Positions 2,677 to 11,278 of a stretch of DNA of 43,515 nt are shown here, one piece after another. Source of the stretch: an uncultured Sulfurovum sp. (lineage in GTDB: Bacteria > Campylobacterota > Campylobacteria > Campylobacterales > Sulfurovaceae); contig CAJXJN010000015.1 in NCBI GenBank assembly GCA_913055205.1, forward strand, positions 1-43,515, read 5' to 3'. The notes beneath the pieces were generated by a model. That model did not search any database, had not been told where the DNA came from, and saw only the letters and a list, made by a program, of their open reading frames with translations. The translations under genes were made by a program, and so were the position numbers. Every line of letters begins with the position of its first letter. The stretch's first letter is position 1.

Positions 2677-3318
2677 ATGTTAGTTGTTGCCAAAAATATA
2701 AGTAAGAAATTTATGGGAACAAAGGTTCTTGATAATGTAAGTCTGACTATCAACGGTGGGGACCGTATCGCAATGATGGGCCCTAACGGAGCAGGGAAAA
2801 CCACGCTGGTACGTGCAATACTTGGCTTTTATCATATAGACAGCGGTGAGATCAGTGTGAACGGTTTTGATCCGGTTAAAAAGAGAGTGGACGTGTTGAA
2901 AAATATCAGTTTTATTCCTCAGTTGCCTCCTCCGGTAAAATTAAGTATAGAAGAATTGCTTATGTATGTTGAGCGTAGTTCCGGAGTTTCCAAAGAGAAG
3001 ATCTTTGAAGAATCTTCCAAAATGGATCTGGATCTGAAAAGTCATATTAAGAAGCCATTTTTTAAACTCTCCGGAGGTATGAAACAGAAACTTTTGATCG
3101 CTATTGCTCTGTCGAAAAAGAGTAGTCTACTCATTTTTGATGAACCGACAGCCAATCTTGATCCTAAGGGTAGAGAAAAATTCTATGAACTTCTTACAGA
3201 GATAGATACAGAGTGTTCAACTCTTTTTATTACACACAGACTTGATGAGATAGAAGGTTTGGTAAATCGAAAGATTTATATGGATCTTGGAAAGGTAACA
3301 GAAGATGAAAAAATTTAA
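2677..3318 (+). CDS. nosF: NosF, ABC transporter ATPase
   Basis: A 213-aa ABC ATPase with Walker A (GPNGAGKTT, residues 35-43), a Q-loop glutamine in FIPQLP, signature LSGGM (131-135), Walker B LLIFDEPTA (151-159) and the switch His in FITHR. NosF works with NosY and periplasmic NosD to deliver a sulfur species or otherwise act in CuZ assembly on NosZ. nosD is not in the window; in this cluster type it sits upstream, before nosG. nosF overlaps nosL by 14 nt. Confidence 0.92.
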   Translation: MLVVAKNISKKFMGTKVLDNVSLTINGGDRIAMMGPNGAGKTTLVRAILGFYHIDSGEISVNGFDPVKKRVDVLKNISFIPQLPPPVKLSIEELLMYVERSSGVSKEKIFEESSKMDLDLKSHIKKPFFKLSGGMKQKLLIAIALSKKSSLLIFDEPTANLDPKGREKFYELLTEIDTECSTLFITHRLDEIEGLVNRKIYMDLGKVTEDEKI

Positions 3319-3778
3319 TTTTCTTTTCTTTGCGGTGATATTCTTATTATTGGGTTTTTCAGGATGTGAAAAAAAACCGATAGGTGCAGTTGAGAAGATG
3401 CACTGGGACAGGGATATGTGCGAACGCTGTAAAATGGCGATCAGTGAGCGTAAATTTGCTTCTCAGATCATCGATCCGAAAACCGGGAAAGTGTATAAAT
3501 TTGATGATATCGGTTGTGCAGTTCTTTGGATGGATGAGACAAAGGTACCATGGAAAGATCAGGCGATAATTTGGATCACAGATGCTAAAACGGGTGAATG
3601 GATCAATGCAAGAAAAGTAAAATATACTGCAGATGCTATTACCCCTATGGCATACGGTTTTGCAGCCTATACAGATAAGACACTCCCCAAAGGTGCAAAA
3701 GTTTTTGATTTTCCTTTTATCAGTAAGAAGATCATAGAGATTGAAAAATCAAATAGCCAAAAGGTAAGGACATACTAA
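3305..3778 (+). CDS. nosL: NosL, copper-binding lipoprotein
   Basis: A 157-aa protein with a lipoprotein signal (lipobox GFSGC, Cys21) and the NosL motif MCERCKM (Cys39, Cys42, Met44). A second conserved part reads KFDDIGCAVLWM, and the end holds PMAYGFAAYTDKT. NosL is an outer-membrane or periplasmic Cu(I) chaperone that supplies NosZ. It overlaps nosF by 14 nt and nosY by 1 nt (TAATG). Of the five NosL-like proteins in this window it fits the canonical family best, and it shares most sequence with the protein at 10775. Confidence 0.93.
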   Translation: MKKFNFLFFAVIFLLLGFSGCEKKPIGAVEKMHWDRDMCERCKMAISERKFASQIIDPKTGKVYKFDDIGCAVLWMDETKVPWKDQAIIWITDAKTGEWINARKVKYTADAITPMAYGFAAYTDKTLPKGAKVFDFPFISKKIIEIEKSNSQKVRTY

Positions 3779-4617
3779 TGAAAAATCTTTTTTTGATCGC
3801 CTATTTGGATGTAAAAGAGTCTCTTCGTTCTAAATGGTTCTATGTTTATTCTGTAGTGTTTGGTGGGTTAATGGCACTTTTTTTTATTGCAGGAGTTTCT
3901 GATTCGGTAGTGATGGGATTTACAGGACTCAGCAGAATGCTTTTGATCTTTATACAGGTGACTATCATTATTTTACCGATCTTTATTTTGATCACAACGG
4001 TCAAATCGATCTCCGGGGATAGAGAGAGTAATGTACTTGAATATATGCTTTCTTTTCCTGTATCACTTAAAGATTATTACTGGGGTAAGATGCTTGGACG
4101 TTTTCTGACAGTTTTTCTGCCTGTTTTCCTGCCTGTTTTCCTGGCGTTACTGTTAGGAGTGGTATTTGGTCTGTTCAAAGGGGGAGATCTGCCGTGGAGA
4201 ATGGTATTTCTTTACTCCTCATTTCTTTTTTCGCTCAGTTTTGTATTTTTGGGATTAGCATTTTTTCTTTCTACTATAGTTAAATCAACGGATGTGGCAT
4301 TGGGCAGTTCTTTTGTTGTCTGGATCATAATGCTTGCCTTTATAGATATTGCTCTGATGGGGCTTATGTTGCAAAACAGAATAAGTGATGAAGTGATCAT
4401 TACTATAGCAATGCTTAATCCTATAGAAGTATTCCGTATCGGAGCAATTTCGCTTTTTGATCCTGAATTGACGGTGATCGGTCCTGTTGCCTACTACCTT
4501 CTTGATACACTGGGATCAAATCTATTGATCATTTATGCTATTGTTTACCCTATTGTGATAGGCTTGATTTTGGCTTATTTTGGCTATATTGCATTTAGAA
4601 AAAAAGATCTTTTATAA
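3778..4617 (+). CDS. nosY: NosY, ABC transporter permease
   Basis: A 279-aa permease with about six membrane segments and the ISGDRESN loop after TM2 that is typical of NosY and related ABC-2 permeases. It pairs with NosF. A 12-bp direct repeat (about 4117-4144) encodes a duplicated Leu-Pro-Val-Phe inside a membrane segment; it keeps the frame and looks harmless. The start shares an A with the nosL stop. Confidence 0.9.
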   Translation: MKNLFLIAYLDVKESLRSKWFYVYSVVFGGLMALFFIAGVSDSVVMGFTGLSRMLLIFIQVTIIILPIFILITTVKSISGDRESNVLEYMLSFPVSLKDYYWGKMLGRFLTVFLPVFLPVFLALLLGVVFGLFKGGDLPWRMVFLYSSFLFSLSFVFLGLAFFLSTIVKSTDVALGSSFVVWIIMLAFIDIALMGLMLQNRISDEVIITIAMLNPIEVFRIGAISLFDPELTVIGPVAYYLLDTLGSNLLIIYAIVYPIVIGLILAYFGYIAFRKKDLL

Positions 4618-4626
4618 AGGAAAATA

Positions 4627-5112
4627 ATGAAAAAAACAGTTTTAGGTTTATTGCTTTTTGTGGGGATGCTCTTCGCAGATACTGTGTTTACAGGAAAGAT
4701 AATGCTCTTAGATAAAAATGCTACAGATCTTGCATATAATTTGCCTCTAAATAAACAAGCATACCAAAAATGGCTCTGTGAAGCAACATTGAAGAACGGT
4801 AAAAAAGTACAGTTTCTTTCTGTGAAATCCATGATGCAAGTCTATTTTCATCAGGATTATTTTAAAAGACATAAACTTTTAGATGCTTCTATCAGTAAAC
4901 TATATGTACAGGATTTTATCAATGGTCAAAAAATAGATGCGACGAAAGCAGTGTATATATTTGGAAGCAGAATGGTTGGACCTCATGGAGATGATCTTAT
5001 TCCGTTTGTATCAGAAGAGAATGCAAAGCTTTTTATGATGAAAAATGGAGGTACTAAAATTTTACCATATGCGAAACTTACCAAAGGTCTGATACGCTAT
5101 TTGGATATGTGA
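4627..5112 (+). CDS. Secreted NosL-like protein lacking the CxxCxM motif
   Basis: A 161-aa protein with a Sec signal peptide (predicted cleavage after LFA, near residue 17). The C-terminal half matches the NosL fold: GSRMVGPHGDDLIPF (residues 113-127) followed by SEENAKLFMMKNGG, parallel to GPMGHELLPF in the protein at 6980. The N-terminal metal motif CxxCxM is absent and a single Cys remains in the mature part (WLCEA, Cys51). It is the last gene of the nos operon, 9 nt after nosY with an AAGGAAAA ribosome site. It may be a partner or a NosL half-domain that has lost or changed its metal site. NosL-related by eye; role unknown. Confidence 0.72.
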   Translation: MKKTVLGLLLFVGMLFADTVFTGKIMLLDKNATDLAYNLPLNKQAYQKWLCEATLKNGKKVQFLSVKSMMQVYFHQDYFKRHKLLDASISKLYVQDFINGQKIDATKAVYIFGSRMVGPHGDDLIPFVSEENAKLFMMKNGGTKILPYAKLTKGLIRYLDM

Positions 5113-5338: not shown

Positions 5339-5860
5339 ATGAAAAGACCAGAACCTATAGATGAAGAGATAGAACTTAAAAACAATGTTTATATAGAAAG
5401 TGATACCGATACAAAAGGGATCATTACCTACTGTAACGACTATTTTGCTGAAATATCCGGTTACAGCAAAGAAGAGTTGATAGGAGAGCCGCACAGTATC
5501 GTCCGTCATCCCGATATGCCTAAGATTTTATTCAAGATCCTCTGGGACCGTATACAAAACGGACATAATTTTGTAGCAGCAGTGAAAAACCTTGCAAAAG
5601 ACGGAAGATATTACTGGGTATTTACTCATTTTGAAGTACTCAGAGACGAGAATGGTGAAATAACAGGATATAAAGCTTCAAGAAAGAAAATATCCAAACA
5701 TGTGACCGAGGTACTTGAACCTATCTATAAAAAACTGGTAGAGATTGAAAAAGAGGGTGGTATGGAAGTATCCGGGAAGTATTTGACTGATTTTTTAAAA
5801 TCTCACGGAGATGATATAACAGTTGACAATATGCTTGAGGAAATTCATAGACTATATTAG
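5339..5860 (+). CDS. Lone PAS-domain sensor, CetB/Aer-like
   Basis: A 173-aa soluble protein made of one PAS domain (about residues 18-120) and a short helical C-terminus. The IVRHPDMP motif and the FVAAVKNLAKDGRYYWV segment are typical of Aer-type, FAD-binding PAS domains. In Campylobacter jejuni the PAS protein CetB has similar size and works with the transducer CetA in energy taxis. No transducer gene is adjacent. Its place beside nos genes suggests redox sensing linked to respiration, but that is inference. An AAAGGAT ribosome site precedes the ATG. Confidence 0.8.
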   Translation: MKRPEPIDEEIELKNNVYIESDTDTKGIITYCNDYFAEISGYSKEELIGEPHSIVRHPDMPKILFKILWDRIQNGHNFVAAVKNLAKDGRYYWVFTHFEVLRDENGEITGYKASRKKISKHVTEVLEPIYKKLVEIEKEGGMEVSGKYLTDFLKSHGDDITVDNMLEEIHRLY

Positions 5861-5978: not shown

Positions 5979-6716
5979 ATGAAAAAAATGTTACTGACTC
6001 TACTGGCATTGGCTACAATGATAAGTTTCTCGCATGCAGAGATGAAATGTGCTTCGGGAAAATGTGGTGCAGCTATGAAATCATCAGCAAAACCTAAAAA
6101 GATGATGAAGATGTTCCAATCGGTTCCCAAAGAGAAAGCTATACTCTTACAAGAGGGTAAAGCTAAAGCTTTTTGTCCTGAGTGTGGCATGACACTGCCA
6201 ATGTTCTATAAAACAAATCATGCTGCAACAGTAGATGGAAAAGTAAAACAGTATTGTTCTATTCACTGTGTCGTAGAAGATATGAAAAAAGGTTCTAAAC
6301 TTACAGATATCAAAGTGGTTGATACAAACTCTTTAAAATTCATTGATGCTGCAAAAGCTTTTTATGTTGTAGGAAGCAGTAAAAAAGGTACGATGACAGC
6401 AGTGAGTAAATATGCTTTTGCTTCCAAAGCAGATGCAGATGCTTTTGTTAAAGCCAATGGTGGTAAAGTGGTTGATTTCAAAGGAGCATTGGAAGCTGCT
6501 AAAGGTGATTTTGCCAAAGACAGTAAGATGATTGCTAAAAAACAGGCAATGATGGCTAAAAAAGGTGAGATGATGTATGGTAAAATGTGTCAAAAGACAG
6601 ACAAGAAGTTTGCCACTACAGCTGAAGCAAAAGCATTCATCGTTGAGAATAAACTCTGTAAAGGTTTGAATGGTAAACAGTTACAGGCTGTTGGACTTTA
6701 TTTGAAAAATAGATAA
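5979..6716 (+). CDS. Secreted NosL-domain protein with C-terminal two-cysteine module
   Basis: A 245-aa protein with a Sec signal (residues 1-20, SHA cleavage). A Met/Cys-rich start follows (KCASGKCG; KKMMKMF), then a NosL domain with FCPECGM (Cys66, Cys69, Met71) and YCSIHC (Cys93, Cys97). The last 55 residues form a separate module starting MAKKGEMMYGKMC, with Cys204 and Cys227 and ending LQAVGLYLKNR. This module looks like a small helical domain, maybe cytochrome-c-derived but without CXXCH. A similar module is N-terminal in the protein at 6980. The gene is monocistronic, with an ATAAGGAT ribosome site. Likely periplasmic copper binding. Confidence 0.75.
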   Translation: MKKMLLTLLALATMISFSHAEMKCASGKCGAAMKSSAKPKKMMKMFQSVPKEKAILLQEGKAKAFCPECGMTLPMFYKTNHAATVDGKVKQYCSIHCVVEDMKKGSKLTDIKVVDTNSLKFIDAAKAFYVVGSSKKGTMTAVSKYAFASKADADAFVKANGGKVVDFKGALEAAKGDFAKDSKMIAKKQAMMAKKGEMMYGKMCQKTDKKFATTAEAKAFIVENKLCKGLNGKQLQAVGLYLKNR

Positions 6717-6979: not shown

Positions 6980-7657
6980 ATGAAGAAGATTATTTTTGTA
7001 GGAATATATATAGTTGGGTTGCTTTATGCTCAAGAGAGTAGTTCTACCAAAGTAATAAAGCTTTCACAAAAAGGTGAAAAGATTGTTCAAACACTTTGTG
7101 AGAGTGGAAAACTGCCAAAGGCTACAGGCAGCATAGAACAATTAATAGAAAAGATTAAAACCTCTCATGCCTGTCCTTCTCTTTCAAAAGCTAAATTGGA
7201 AGCAGTGGCGTATTTTGTGAGTAATGGGAGTATGAAAAAAGTAAGTAAACACATGCATGTTCCTCATGATGCAAAATGTCCTGTGTGCGGTATGTTTGTG
7301 AGTAAGTATCCAAAATGGGCAGCATCTATGGAGTATGATGGTAAAAAACACTACTTTGACGGTGTGAAAGATATGATGAAATATTATATCTTTGATGGGG
7401 ATTTCCTCTACGACCGTAGCCGTATTTCCCAGATGACAGTGAGTGACTATTACACACTGGAAGAGATTCCTGCGAAAGAGGCTTTTTATGTGCTGGATGC
7501 AGATGTTTTTGGACCGATGGGACATGAACTCCTCCCGTTTAAGAGCCAAAAAAGTGCCAAAACGTTTATGTCTGAGCATCATGGTAAAGCGATAGTGAAG
7601 TTTGATGAAATTACCGATAAAATGGTGATGGCATTAGATGGCATCGAACAGCCGTAA
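6980..7657 (+). CDS. Secreted NosL-like protein with N-terminal two-cysteine module
   Basis: A 225-aa protein with a Sec signal (residues 1-18, cut near YAQ). Residues 30-83 form a helical module (QKGEKIVQTLC, Cys40; HACPSL, Cys65; LEAVAYFVSNG) resembling the C-terminal module of the protein at 5979. The NosL domain follows: KCPVCGM (Cys100, Cys103, Met105), HYFDGVKDMMKY and FGPMGHELLPF. It is the first gene of an operon running to 11278. Likely a periplasmic copper-binding chaperone for that system. The ATG follows AGGGTGGGATTGT, a moderate ribosome site. Confidence 0.78.
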   Translation: MKKIIFVGIYIVGLLYAQESSSTKVIKLSQKGEKIVQTLCESGKLPKATGSIEQLIEKIKTSHACPSLSKAKLEAVAYFVSNGSMKKVSKHMHVPHDAKCPVCGMFVSKYPKWAASMEYDGKKHYFDGVKDMMKYYIFDGDFLYDRSRISQMTVSDYYTLEEIPAKEAFYVLDADVFGPMGHELLPFKSQKSAKTFMSEHHGKAIVKFDEITDKMVMALDGIEQP

Positions 7658-7678
7658 TTAGAAATTGGCAGGTAGCAA

Positions 7679-7933
7679 TTGATTAAAGAATTTTCTATAT
7701 TGGTATCCATGGTACTGTTGCTGGCAGGCTTTGTACTTGTACACTATCTGACTCATAACGGCATCTCCTCAAAAGAGATGTTAAGTAGTGTTACGAAGGT
7801 CACAAAACTCTCTTCTCCCTCATTAAGTGTTGCTTACTATGAACCAAGAGTTCTTTTCTATGATGAGGCCTCAAATCCTGCATATCCTCAAATGCAGACT
7901 ATAAATAAAATGGATCTGGTTTATGCAAAATAA
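7679..7933 (+). CDS. Small membrane-anchored protein of the NosL/ABC operon
   Basis: An 84-aa frame with a TTG start, one membrane segment (about residues 6-27) and a polar tail rich in Tyr and Ser that ends LVYAK. I do not recognise the family. It starts 21 nt after the NosL-like gene and overlaps the permease gene by 11 nt, which supports it as a real, co-translated gene. The tail should be periplasmic if the anchor is an uncleaved N-terminal signal. It may be a small subunit of the transporter downstream. The start codon is uncertain. Confidence 0.6.
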   Translation: MIKEFSILVSMVLLLAGFVLVHYLTHNGISSKEMLSSVTKVTKLSSPSLSVAYYEPRVLFYDEASNPAYPQMQTINKMDLVYAK

Positions 7934-9116
7934 TGTTTTTGGACATAGTGCTTTTCTGCACTTTCTTACACTGCTGCTTTTTAAACAAAAAGGCAAACAT
8001 ATTGGAGCAGTGTTGATCTCTGTGATCATCATCTTTCTTTTGAGTTCTGTACTCTTTATCTCCTCCTCTTTGCAAAATTCACTTTTGAGTACGCTGGAGA
8101 GTCAAGCGGATTTTACGTTAAATAAAGTTCAAGCAGGAAGAGCTGTCAACACACCTGTGGATTGGCTAGATAAAGTGCTTGAGATCGATGGGGTATCCAA
8201 GGTTGCACCCAGGGTTTATGGCAGGTATTTTTTTACCCCTCGCGGGAAATCCTTTTTAGTGGTCGGCGTAGATTTTTTTGATGAACAAAGCAGTAGAGAA
8301 CTTCGATCACTTATAGAGAGCATAGACCTCAAAAGCTTTTTATCTACAGATAGTATGATCGTAGGCGAAGGGGTAAAAACCTTTTTGTCAGAACATTATT
8401 ATAGTGAGAATTTTTCATTTAAGACCCCGGAAGGGAGTTTTAAAAAAGTACAAATCTACCAAACCCTTCCTGCTCAGAGTAATCTCATTGCTAATGATAT
8501 GATCATTATGCCTATAGATCTGGCCAGAGAAATTTTTGGATTGGGAGAAGATGAAATAACGGATATTACTTTCAATGTTCCCAATGATGCAGAGTGGGAC
8601 AACATTATCACTAAACTACACCTGCTATTTTATGATGTTCGGGTGGTGGAGAAAAGAGAGGTTGCAAAAGCCTATGAAAACCTTTACAACTACAAAGGGG
8701 GACTCTTTTTGATACTCTATCTTGTTACCATAGTCACCTTTATGCTTATACTCTATCAGCGTTATTCCATGGTCTATTCGACAGAGCGAAAAGAGATAGG
8801 CATACTTCGTGCAGTAGGATGGAGTATCAAAGATATTTTGAAATTGAAATTCTATGAAACGGCAGTGATTGTAGTGATTAGTTTTATATTGGGTGTGGTG
8901 TTGGCATATCTGTATGTATTTGTATGGGGTGCACCACTGCTTAGTCAGATATTTTTAGGAGGTGTAAATTTGCCCAATCATGTAAGTTTTGTACCAGTGA
9001 TAAAGTTTGGATTGTTGGGGTCAATTTTCCTTTTTTATGCCATTCCATTTTTTGCTGCAGTAATTATCCCTGCCTGGAAGATCGCAGTGACATCACCTAA
9101 AGAGGCAATGTTATGA
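7923..9116 (+). CDS. MacB/FtsX-type ABC transporter permease
   Basis: A 397-aa protein with one N-terminal membrane segment (about 28-50), a large extracytoplasmic domain (about 50-265) and three C-terminal segments around 268-288, 320-345 and 370-390. This is the topology of MacB/LolC/FtsX mechanotransmission permeases. The cytoplasmic STERKEIGILRAVGWS motif before the second group of segments is the classic FtsX-family coupling region. Such permeases usually work on periplasmic substrates or partners rather than moving ions across the membrane. It overlaps the ATPase gene by 4 nt (ATGA) and lies between NosL-like genes. Confidence 0.85.
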   Translation: MQNNVFGHSAFLHFLTLLLFKQKGKHIGAVLISVIIIFLLSSVLFISSSLQNSLLSTLESQADFTLNKVQAGRAVNTPVDWLDKVLEIDGVSKVAPRVYGRYFFTPRGKSFLVVGVDFFDEQSSRELRSLIESIDLKSFLSTDSMIVGEGVKTFLSEHYYSENFSFKTPEGSFKKVQIYQTLPAQSNLIANDMIIMPIDLAREIFGLGEDEITDITFNVPNDAEWDNIITKLHLLFYDVRVVEKREVAKAYENLYNYKGGLFLILYLVTIVTFMLILYQRYSMVYSTERKEIGILRAVGWSIKDILKLKFYETAVIVVISFILGVVLAYLYVFVWGAPLLSQIFLGGVNLPNHVSFVPVIKFGLLGSIFLFYAIPFFAAVIIPAWKIAVTSPKEAML

Positions 9117-9796
9117 TGATCCGTATAGAAGGTGTCAATAAAATATTTAACGAGGGAAGAGTACAGGCATTTGAAGCGCTCAAGTCTATTGATCTTGAAA
9201 TAGCCAAAGGTGAGACGATCATATTAAGTGGTGTAAGTGGCAGTGGGAAATCAACACTCCTGTCACTCATCGCTGCACTCGATAAACCCAGCAGTGGGAA
9301 GATAGTAGTGGAAGGTGAACTTATTTCAAAACTTCCTGATCTGCACGCATCAGCCTATCGTGCAAAAAGTATAGGGTTTATTTTTCAGCACTTTAATCTT
9401 TTAGAGTCATTGAGTGTAGAAGAGAATGTGATTGCCCCTTTGATCAATTCCGGACTTGATATGGTCGACATTAAAGCCAAAGCAGAAAAGAGTATGAAAA
9501 TGGCTGCTATTGAGCATAAGGCATCACAACAGGTCAAAGCACTCTCAGGCGGAGAGAAGCAGCGCTGTGCCATTGCCAGAGCTTTGGTCCATGAGCCTGA
9601 ACTCATCATTTGTGATGAACCTACTGCCAATCTTGATAGAGAGAATTCACTTAAATTCATAGAAATACTTCGCTCGTTGTATGCGTTGAAGAAAACCATC
9701 ATCGTTGCAACCCATGATCCACTTTTTGAGACGCTCTCTTTTCCTGTAAGATTGGTTCATATGGAGGATGGAAAAATAGTGAGCAGTGAGCAGTGA
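9113..9796 (+). CDS. LolD/MacB-type ABC transporter ATPase
   Basis: A 227-aa ABC ATPase with Walker A GVSGSGKST (40-48), Q-loop FIFQHFNLL, signature LSGGE (144-148), Walker B ELIICDEPTA (163-172) and switch His in VATHD. It belongs to the LolD/MacB/FtsE branch and pairs with the permease upstream (4-nt overlap). The stop falls in a threefold GTGAGCA repeat that also contains the proposed start of the next gene. The substrate is unknown; NosL neighbours suggest metallocentre or copper handling. Confidence 0.88.
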   Translation: MMIRIEGVNKIFNEGRVQAFEALKSIDLEIAKGETIILSGVSGSGKSTLLSLIAALDKPSSGKIVVEGELISKLPDLHASAYRAKSIGFIFQHFNLLESLSVEENVIAPLINSGLDMVDIKAKAEKSMKMAAIEHKASQQVKALSGGEKQRCAIARALVHEPELIICDEPTANLDRENSLKFIEILRSLYALKKTIIVATHDPLFETLSFPVRLVHMEDGKIVSSEQ

Positions 9797-9799
9797 GCA
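9779..9799 (+). repeat. Three tandem GTGAGCA heptamers at a gene junction
   Basis: Three exact copies of the 7-bp unit GTGAGCA cover the ATPase stop codon (9794-9796) and the GTG proposed as start of the next gene (9786-9788). Seven is not a multiple of three, so gain or loss of a copy would change the reading frame at the ATPase C-terminus and the coupling to the next gene. Confidence 0.85.
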
Positions 9800-10778
9800 G
9801 GTAGCGGTTTTGAATGAAATATTATTAAGTAATGAAGTAATTGTCTATTTACTTTCAGAGACGGTACTCTACATTCTGCTTTTTGTTGCTTTTCTCTCTA
9901 CGATCGGATTGCTGAGAAAATGGAACTTTAATACCTTTACCACAGAGCAGTTCAATTTGGAAAACCGTTCTTATTTGGTAATGACTATCATCTTTTTTGT
10001 GATGTTGCTTAAAGTCATTTTACTTCCTTATTTTGTCTATACCATAGATAATCTCGCCGACCTTATTCCCGGGGCGATGTGTGGTGCAGGAGTCATTAAA
10101 GCGAATGTATATGGTAATCCGCTTTTATCACTTAAAATCGTCATACTCTTTTTGAGTGGTATCTGGTTGAGTATTAATCAGATCGATCTTAAGGCAAAGA
10201 ACTATCCTTATCTGAAATTAAAATCATGGTTTTTCGTCGCTATTTTTCTGCTTTTAAGTATGGAATTCTTATTGGATCTACTCTATTTTACCCATATAGA
10301 AACAACTAAAGCTGTGAGCTGCTGTTCTGTAATTTTCGGACAGACAGGTGGAGCCAATGGGCTTCCTTTTGGTTTGGATATCCCTAAACTCCTGATGCTT
10401 TTTTATCTGCTTTATGCTTTGGTGATATTAACAATATTCTCAGACCTTGCTCTTATGAGTATTATCGCAAGTTTGCTTTTTGCTGTGGTGGCTTATTATG
10501 CAGTTGTTTATTTCTTTGGTACTTATATTTATGAGTTACCGACACATCAATGTCCTTTTTGTATGCTGCAAGACCATTATTATTATGTGGGCTATGCCGT
10601 TTGGGGATTTTTGCTTCTGAGTGTCTTTTTGATCATTGATGGTGCCGTGATGCAATATTTTTTTCATCAGTATTTAAAAACTATAAAGCGATTTTCGCTA
10701 TTATTGCTGACACTTTTTGTAATACTTTGCAGTGCCTATGTCGTTATCTATTATTTAAAAAACGGAGTCTTTTTATGA
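9786..10778 (+). CDS. Polytopic membrane protein with CPFCM motif
   Basis: A protein of up to 330 aa with about eight membrane segments. Cysteines are few and grouped: MCGAG (Cys99), SCCS (Cys179-180) and THQCPFCMLQ (Cys256, Cys259, Met260). The last motif recalls the CxxC of DsbB/VKOR-type quinone-linked oxidoreductases but could equally bind copper. I do not recognise a named family. The GTG start at 9786 overlaps the ATPase gene by 11 nt; a TTG at 9807 or the following codons are alternatives. It ends with a 4-nt ATGA overlap into the next NosL-like gene. Confidence 0.78.
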   Translation: MSSEQVAVLNEILLSNEVIVYLLSETVLYILLFVAFLSTIGLLRKWNFNTFTTEQFNLENRSYLVMTIIFFVMLLKVILLPYFVYTIDNLADLIPGAMCGAGVIKANVYGNPLLSLKIVILFLSGIWLSINQIDLKAKNYPYLKLKSWFFVAIFLLLSMEFLLDLLYFTHIETTKAVSCCSVIFGQTGGANGLPFGLDIPKLLMLFYLLYALVILTIFSDLALMSIIASLLFAVVAYYAVVYFFGTYIYELPTHQCPFCMLQDHYYYVGYAVWGFLLLSVFLIIDGAVMQYFFHQYLKTIKRFSLLLLTLFVILCSAYVVIYYLKNGVFL

Positions 10779-11278
10779 AAAAAATACTTATCAATTTATT
10801 AACTTTTGCTATAGTTGTAGCTGTTATTGTGATACTTTTACTTTCATTGGGAAGTGAAGAGGGAGCAAGGTATGTCTACAAAGGCAATACAGCACATCAA
10901 CCTGTTTCCGTAAAATCTAAAGAGTATCAATGTTCTGAATGTAATATGGATGTGGAAGATCTTAGTTATACAGTAGAACTTATTACCGAAAAAGGTGATA
11001 CTTATTTTTTCGATGATATAGGGTGTGTAGTACTTTGGCTTAAGAACCATACACCAAAAATCAATAAGATCGTAACACAAACGCAAGATACCCATCAGTG
11101 GGTCGATGCTACTAAAGCCTGGTACTCTCGCACTGCATATTCACCTATGGGTTACGGATTTGCTGCATATGAAAAGAAAAAAGAGGGGTTGATCCCTTAT
11201 GATGAAATGAGGCTTTTGATGCTTCAGGGGAAAAACCTGCATGATCCTTTTGTCAAAAAGAAGCTTTTGGGAGAATAA
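10775..11278 (+). CDS. Membrane-anchored NosL-like protein
   Basis: The ATG at 10775 gives 168 aa with a strong N-terminal membrane anchor (about residues 4-25) and no lipobox. The frame upstream of it lies inside the previous gene. The NosL domain has YQCSECNM (Cys53, Cys56, Met58), FFDDIGCVVLWL and SPMGYGFAAYEKK, nearly the same pattern as nosL at 3305. It closes the six-gene operon, coupled by ATGA to the CPFCM membrane protein. Probably a Cu(I)-binding periplasmic domain held at the inner membrane. Confidence 0.85.
   Translation: MKKILINLLTFAIVVAVIVILLLSLGSEEGARYVYKGNTAHQPVSVKSKEYQCSECNMDVEDLSYTVELITEKGDTYFFDDIGCVVLWLKNHTPKINKIVTQTQDTHQWVDATKAWYSRTAYSPMGYGFAAYEKKKEGLIPYDEMRLLMLQGKNLHDPFVKKKLLGE

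Follow-up and report, generated by a model that had tools for sequence, protein, structure and literature searches.

A NosL-linked gene module with a type VII ABC transporter and a new membrane protein family, a candidate system for copper-site assembly in Campylobacterota

The subject of this work is a gene module found in a stretch of 43,515 nucleotides from an uncultured Sulfurovum sp. (hereafter the window), which is contig C15 of the draft genome G000 (1.66 Mb, 86% complete). A previous sequence-only reading had described positions 6980-11278 as a six-gene operon with NosL-like proteins, an ABC permease and ATPase, and a polytopic membrane protein with grouped cysteines, here called CPFCM. 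All six open reading frames (ORFs) were found at these positions on the + strand, and Pfam assigned ORF1, ORF3 and ORF4 to the families expected from that description (Table 1). The tight spacing of the genes was also recovered for the most part, with a gap of 21 nt between ORF1 and ORF2, an overlap of 11 nt between ORF2 and ORF3 and one of 4 nt between ORF3 and ORF4. The 11-nt overlap between ORF4 and the CPFCM gene (ORF5) is doubtful, as it depends on a GTG start at 9786; the start is probably the TTG at 9810, which leaves a gap of 13 nt, because most of the 120 listed database copies have 322 amino acids (aa), although one close copy (P0002) has 330 aa. For ORF6, the ATG at 10775 is the more likely start since same-genus relatives have 167-169 aa, and it gives a 4-nt ATGA overlap with the CPFCM gene. 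Promoter and terminator scans gave numbers close to those of shuffled sequences (22 vs 19.6 and 6 vs 4.1, respectively).

Table 1. Coordinates of the module and of neighbouring nos-type genes in the window.
Feature	Position	Strand	Match or remark
NosL-domain protein, 245 aa	5979..6716	+	Pfam NosL 6.2e-16; C-terminal spacer with two Cys
NosL-domain protein (ORF1), 225 aa	6980..7657	+	Pfam NosL 2.7e-29; two-Cys spacer and domain with CPVCGM
Single-helix anchored protein (ORF2), 84 aa, TTG start	7679..7933	+	no Pfam match
Type VII (FtsX/MacB/LolC-like) ABC permease (ORF3), 397 aa	7923..9116	+	Pfam FtsX 5e-12
ABC ATPase, LolD/FtsE group (ORF4), 227 aa	9113..9796	+	ABC_tran 3.9e-34
CPFCM, 8-helix membrane protein (ORF5), 322 aa if started at TTG 9810	9810..10778	+	no Pfam match
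Membrane-anchored NosL-like protein (ORF6), ATG start, CSECNM	10775..11278	+	sub-threshold NosL, 16.7 bits
ABC ATPase	2677-3318	+	ABC_tran; presumably NosF, from gene order
NosL-like protein	3305-3778	+	sub-threshold NosL
Permease	3778-4617	+	presumably NosY, from gene order

The conservation of this arrangement was followed in 298 Campylobacterota genomes, a sample rich in a few genera, in which genes, gene order, homology, co-occurrence and conserved residues were observed directly. CPFCM is present in 107 genomes with 126 copies, of which 60 were examined (59 fetched stretches and the window); its gene was called in 59 of these 60, being missed in L070, and an additional stretch, L039, was fetched for the permease only. 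Of the 59 loci, 55 have the permease gene at most three genes upstream of CPFCM, 57 have the ATPase gene at most two genes upstream, and 48 have a NosL gene in the same gene run; in G234, G177 and G196 the set is divided between two places. This arrangement is far beyond chance, and the core genes stay together in relatives instead of being scattered, as had been anticipated for a conserved NosL-linked ABC module. The closest relatives, from three genomes of the same genus, have CPFCM proteins 73-77% identical and permeases 77-80% identical to those of the window. In the contig search, the named records ranking best are titled Sulfurovum, and the top 80 among at least 560 loci all belong to Campylobacterota-type records, except one titled simply 'bacterium'. 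Searches of plasmid records gave no match to CPFCM, to the permease or to the Desulfobulbaceae relative P0211.

The link with NosL was equally consistent at the genome level. With PF05573 at 1e-6, NosL was detected in 130 of the 298 genomes, including all 107 with CPFCM. Among the 210 genomes without nosZ, the gene of nitrous oxide (N2O) reductase, NosL occurs in 44, of which 40 have CPFCM and four do not. Excluding also the genomes with type-I mccA (defined below) leaves 198, in which NosL is present in 28/28 with CPFCM vs 4/170 without it. The enzyme gene that most steadily accompanies the module is mccA, which codes for the haem-copper sulfite reductase MccA, and not nosZ, so that the module is not specific to N2O reduction. 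MccA was detected in 85 genomes; 48 of them gave high scores and are called type I here, and the other 37, called type II, have 45-51% identity. All 48 type-I genomes have CPFCM, within 25 kb of mccA in 47 of them (9.4-13.3 kb); in the exception, G182, mccA lies at a contig end. As to nosZ, it was counted in 88 genomes (86 above the family cut-off and two with split matches), 67 of which have CPFCM; both genes lie within 25 kb in 15 of these 67, or in 12 of 31 when type-I mccA genomes are excluded. In the Wolinella-like genome G167 (C1:870653-873755), the nosZ match consists of two segments separated by about 1.3 kb, which looks as though an element lay within the gene. The genome G248 has two identical CPFCM copies (L060 and L061), one nos-linked and the other elsewhere, which point to a recent duplication or transfer of the module.

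Eleven of the loci examined are mcc loci (L049, L056, L058, L062-L068, L091). As far as the stretches reach, they contain genes for a peptidyl-prolyl isomerase, a ferredoxin, an NrfD-like protein, a haem lyase (which we take to be of the ResB/CcsA type) and mostly a Sel1-repeat protein, followed by the module; Sel1 was identified by Pfam in L065 and the other names come from reading. The 11 mcc copies cluster as a single clade (100/99) in the tree of CPFCM, and the nos-linked copies fall in several places, the window copy grouping outside the mcc clade with the two same-genus nos-linked copies included (99/97). The MccA upstream in L097 matches residues 1-702 of the MccA structure 4rkm with 1672 bits, so G167 is either Wolinella succinogenes or a close neighbour of it. 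The idea that type II MccA lacks copper ligands was rejected, since both cysteines presumed to bind copper were present in the eight proteins examined of the 37. At the eight type II mccA loci (L103-L110), a thioredoxin-like lipoprotein gene was observed in three, one of them also with SCO1/SenC; Pfam was run on L103 only.

Regarding the individual proteins, the module probably starts one gene earlier than described, at 5979, and the products of 5979-6716 and 6980-7657 look like two halves of a double-NosL protein that is encoded elsewhere by a single gene. At the mcc loci the NosL protein has 346-378 aa in nine of 11 cases (284 and 288 aa in L058 and L062), and the double NosL of L056 and L064 shows, by reading, two NosL domains flanking a two-Cys spacer, both NosL stretches being confirmed by Pfam in L064. 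ORF6 stays below the PF05573 cut-off (16.7 vs 24 bits), and its earlier description as a second NosL-like protein stands on its CxxCxM motif and its membership of the same protein cluster as the NosL-like gene at 3305, not on the family score. The motif CxxCxM, given as that of clade II NosL in the accessible part of PMC6530538, occurs in 46/50 NosL proteins upstream in the gene run, with two copies in 22. Among the 84 NosL proteins of the runs, a lipobox is strict in five and loose in 14, some plainly by chance, and some of the downstream proteins look like lipoproteins. The slot of ORF2 is filled in many relatives by proteins of 61-121 aa from four sequence clusters. A membrane protein with the motif GHCxGMCGG was seen in nine loci (L041, L044, L045, L048, L051, L053, L054, L075, L094), identified as DsbD_2 by Pfam in L051; its gene lies 3' of the downstream NosL gene in eight of the nine and, in L075, beside another NosL gene on the other strand.

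CPFCM had no match in Pfam, NCBIfam or PDB sequences. Its structure model (pLDDT 89, pTM 0.84) shows eight long helices, with a poorly modelled loop after C171/C172, and fold searches with this model returned nothing convincing (best Foldseek E-value 1.3; mainly helical bundles with VIA-align). A profile comparison of the two halves gave no match that would indicate an internal duplication. In 57/57 Campylobacterota relatives, M90, C91, C171, C172, H246, C248 and C251 are invariant. The loops bearing these residues have on average 0.6-1.6 Lys and Arg, vs 1.4-4.1 in the loops of the opposite side, with a small overlap; because of these few positive charges, the conserved loops are probably periplasmic. 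More distant relatives were found in records named Desulfatiglandales, Desulfobulbaceae, Thermodesulfobacteriota, Sedimenticola and Gammaproteobacteria. In an alignment of 22 sequences, GAMC and the CC pair are invariant and HxCPFC varies, often to CPFD, one sequence being devoid of both cysteines of CPFC. P0146, P0171, P0195, P0211 and P0219 are CPFCM relatives, several from records named after Desulfobacterota or Gammaproteobacteria and some with CPFD for CPFC. As judged from these comparisons, CPFCM is a new membrane protein family.

The permease has the features of a type VII ABC permease, namely an FtsX domain and a topology of one helix, a periplasmic domain and three helices; MacB_PCD was matched only below its cut-off. 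Its model (pLDDT 89.2) resembles LolE (2.9e-16) and MacB (1.8e-15), and also LolC and HrtBA, in Foldseek. This finding agrees with the earlier claim of an ABC class different from that of NosDFY, as does the absence of a NosD-like domain, by Pfam, from the six proteins. The best NCBIfam model for the ATPase is LolD, at 195.9 bits and thus below the cut-off of 307.75, and the LolCE model gave 45.8 bits with the permease vs a cut-off of 362. The proposal of a transenvelope machine was not supported, as Pfam analysis of the operon proteins revealed neither a MacA-like adaptor nor an outer-membrane channel, and permease and ATPase are encoded by separate, unfused genes. Among the Cys, Met and His residues of the permease, none is invariant and only M145 is conserved in at least 80% of the sequences (48/57), from which the permease probably acts by moving a partner and not by passing copper.

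Some of the loci also place the module close to genes of copper uptake. In L039, where the module is split, two NosL genes, an 81-aa ORF and the permease gene are preceded, on the same strand and at a distance of about 100 nt, by a gene for an OprC-like receptor; the receptor matches the NCBIfam TonB-copper model at 9.8e-48, below its cut-off, and OprC is its best PDB match. In L069, the module comes after a TonB gene and two ExbD- and ExbB-like genes (only the TonB of this locus was tested by Pfam), and members of the same two ExbD-/ExbB-like clusters precede it in L072, L073 and L095. OprC-like receptors occur in 82/298 genomes, that is, in 55/107 with CPFCM and 27/191 without it; in genomes devoid of both nosZ and type-I mccA, the proportions are 17/28 with CPFCM vs 18/170 without. 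This co-occurrence fits copper as the cargo, although it is not tight. In four genomes of the genus of the window (G219, G221, G225, G264), an OprC-like TonB copper receptor gene was observed directly upstream of nosZ, with about 360-520 nt between the matches.

Taken together, the invariant residues of CPFCM, the CxxCxM motif of NosL and a permease devoid of conserved ligands favour a route of Cu(I) from NosL to CPFCM and then to a copper reductase, powered by the ABC pair. Therefore, we hypothesize that the operon is a NosL-dependent module for copper-site assembly, which would work like NosDFYL without being a member of that system, and to which we assign a probability of about 0.6. It also draws on the presence of NosL in every CPFCM genome, on the position of CPFCM near type-I mccA and, in part, nosZ, on the single clade of the mcc copies, on the OprC-like receptor genes and on the nosL and nosY genes near sirA in Shewanella. 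Handling of copper, as previously suggested, is thus probable, whereas a role specific to N2O reduction is not supported. In this scheme, in which the cargo (copper), the enzymes served, the way the work is divided and the direction in which copper passes are inferred, the NosL proteins would hold Cu(I) in the periplasm, and the permease and ATPase would form a type VII ABC engine in which ATP use in the cytoplasm moves the periplasmic domain. The periplasmic Cys/Met/His set of CPFCM would take Cu(I) from NosL, or else keep the thiols of NosL and the target reduced, and the ABC engine would drive docking and release, so that Cu(I) would end in a periplasmic copper reductase, possibly MccA in mcc clusters and NosZ in nos clusters. 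The module would thereby take the part of NosDFYL, using another ABC class and no NosD.

Several observations weigh against this hypothesis. CxxCxM is present in only 17/34 NosL proteins downstream in the gene run, and 11/59 loci have no NosL gene within the run, although in L086-L088 one adjoins it. CPFCM is missing from 21/88 nosZ genomes, including G204 and G264 of the genus of the window, and from 32/37 genomes with type-II mccA (5/37 have it), hence the module is not strictly needed for either NosZ or MccA; moreover, type II MccA keeps the cysteines presumed to be copper ligands (8/8) and yet is mostly found without the module. When CPFCM and nosZ coexist, they are not within 25 kb of each other in 52/67 genomes, where the two lie farther apart or on separate contigs. 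Of the 107 CPFCM genomes, 28 have neither nosZ nor type-I mccA, which again speaks against specificity for N2O reduction; G000, where the nos cluster runs off the contig, is among these 28. In addition, the co-occurrence counts treat genomes of one phylum, which are kin, as independent, with no correction for phylogeny.

The main rival explanation, which we regard as unlikely, is that CPFCM is a DsbB/VKOR-like thiol oxidoreductase that exchanges electrons between quinone and periplasmic thiols, setting the redox state of the CxxC of NosL and of cysteines in the target, with the ABC pair as an accessory. Five invariant cysteines, including an adjacent pair and CPxC and all predicted to be periplasmic, would suit such an enzyme, as would the nine-member cluster with the DsbD_2 match (L051) beside the downstream NosL and the thioredoxin-like lipoprotein at 3/8 type II mccA loci. 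A weak VKOR match (0.015) was also obtained, in one of the 57 CPFCM members, but CPFCM has no PDB sequence match or convincing fold match, and VKOR and DsbB chains are absent among the fold matches listed. Conservation speaks against it too: M90 and H246 are kept as strongly as the cysteines in the 57 Campylobacterota sequences, and in distant relatives the last cysteine is replaced by Asp in several and both CPFC cysteines are lost in one, unlike a catalytic CxxC.

Slightly less likely again is an envelope system for copper import or detoxification, of whose copper pool mccA and nosZ would merely be frequent customers. The OprC-like receptor gene beside the split module (L039), the TonB gene beside another (L069) and the 28 CPFCM genomes without nosZ and type-I mccA are all in line with such a function. 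Nevertheless, a general pool would not require CPFCM to lie at most 13.3 kb from type-I mccA in 47/48 genomes, and the permease has no conserved metal ligands; copper uptake as such is compatible with assembly of copper sites by the module. It is very improbable that the ABC pair is a LolCDE-like device freeing or sorting NosL lipoproteins from the inner membrane, since, despite the best match of the permease model to LolE (followed by MacB and LolC), that of the ATPase to LolD and the resemblance of certain downstream NosL proteins to lipoproteins, there is a single permease gene and no LolC and LolE, the LolCE score is far below its cut-off, and lipoboxes are few among the NosL proteins of the runs.

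In the window, the module adjoins nos genes and not mccA. The left end is part of a nos cluster, inside which the contig begins, as indicated by ORF reading and Pfam. Its genes encode, in order, a protein of the ferredoxin type, a pair of mono-haem cytochromes, a membrane protein bearing ferredoxin motifs, an ABC ATPase, a NosL-like protein and a permease, which we take to be NosG, C1, C2, H and F, the NosL-like protein, and Y, from the order in Wolinella. These identities come from reading the sequence, except those of the ATPase and NosL, which rest on family matches; for the permease, the NCBIfam search gave no family match. In the draft genome, 86% complete and with the nos cluster running off the contig end, nosZ was not found, nor was mccA at 1e-60. 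Another NosL-family protein (Pfam 1.2e-15), without CxxCxM, is encoded at 4627-5112, and a PAS-like protein, so named by reading, at 5339-5860 between NosL genes. The latter has relatives in L036, L037 and L077 and is possibly a regulator or unrelated.

If the module loads copper, this would explain the presence of NosL in Campylobacterota without nosZ, provide a function for a membrane protein family without Pfam match and open a second genetic approach to N2O reduction, a process that limits the release of a greenhouse gas. A comparison with Shewanella is instructive here. The haem-copper sulfite reductase is listed as a cuproenzyme (PMC7558416, accessible part), and SirA is the MccA homologue of Shewanella, where nosL and nosY lie near sirA (PMC5955497, PMC9415397). 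In the portions available, a table for Shewanella oneidensis gives sirA as SO0479, nosL as SO0485, nosY as SO0488 and the TonB copper receptor gene nosA as SO0630 (PMC5955497), and a second Shewanella has nosDFYL at tags 04146-04149 with one of two sirA genes at 04142, nosZ not being found there (PMC9415397). Since sirA stands near NosL and NosDFY-type genes in Shewanella, and mccA near NosL and the module in Wolinella, two ABC classes seem to serve one kind of enzyme together with NosL, and the comparison of both organisms makes the question directly testable. A broader proposal, whose chances we place a little short of even, is that Bacteria have two non-homologous, ATP-driven and NosL-centred machines for assembly of copper sites, NosDFY and the type VII module; that the invariant Met, Cys and His of the CPFCM family form a membrane relay for Cu(I); and that sulfite and N2O reductases can use the second machine interchangeably, relatives of CPFCM being present in records named after Desulfobacterota and Gammaproteobacteria.

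The earlier suggestion that the operon might be undescribed holds in part. In nos clusters of Sulfurospirillum cavolei, a five-gene set with two ABC transporter parts and three hypothetical proteins was drawn in 2016, inserted between nosL and nosY in the order hypothetical, permease, ATPase, hypothetical, hypothetical, as in L060; the accessible part of that report gives no function for the set and no link to mcc clusters (PMC4794192). In the open-access literature, no paper was found that treats the set as a module, names it or joins its nos and mcc copies. The accessory genes of the Wolinella succinogenes mcc cluster, which we take to be mccF to mccL, are homologous and have the same order in L056: double NosL, a 62-aa anchor, permease, ATPase and CPFCM. 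The window copy differs from them in lying within a nos cluster, in falling outside the mcc clade of the tree and in having the double NosL as two genes; a NosL-like gene follows downstream in ten of the 11 mcc loci, with none in L056 among the clusters made. With LolCDE, MacB and other type VII ABC systems, the module shares the fold and topology of the permease and the class of the ATPase, but it has one unfused permease, no LolE/LolC pair and no MacA, and its neighbours are NosL and CPFCM. It likewise differs from MacAB-TolC, in which permease and ATPase are fused and a MacA adaptor takes part. The iron system FetABCDEF (Cj1658-1665), as we presume, has a DUF2318 protein and two permeases, unlike the single permease gene seen here, and DUF2318 was not among the families matched by the 57 CPFCM proteins. 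With NosDFY and NosL, which serve maturation of the CuZ site of N2O reductase, the module has in common an ABC transporter paired with NosL beside the gene of a periplasmic copper reductase; it differs in that its permease is of the FtsX type (type VII) and not a NosY, NosD is missing, an 8-helix Cys protein is added and NosL is often double. By its gene content, then, the module falls outside NosDFYL, LolCDE and MacAB, and what is new here is a putative assembly of copper sites that depends on NosL, is assisted by an ABC transporter of a different class and involves a new membrane protein family.

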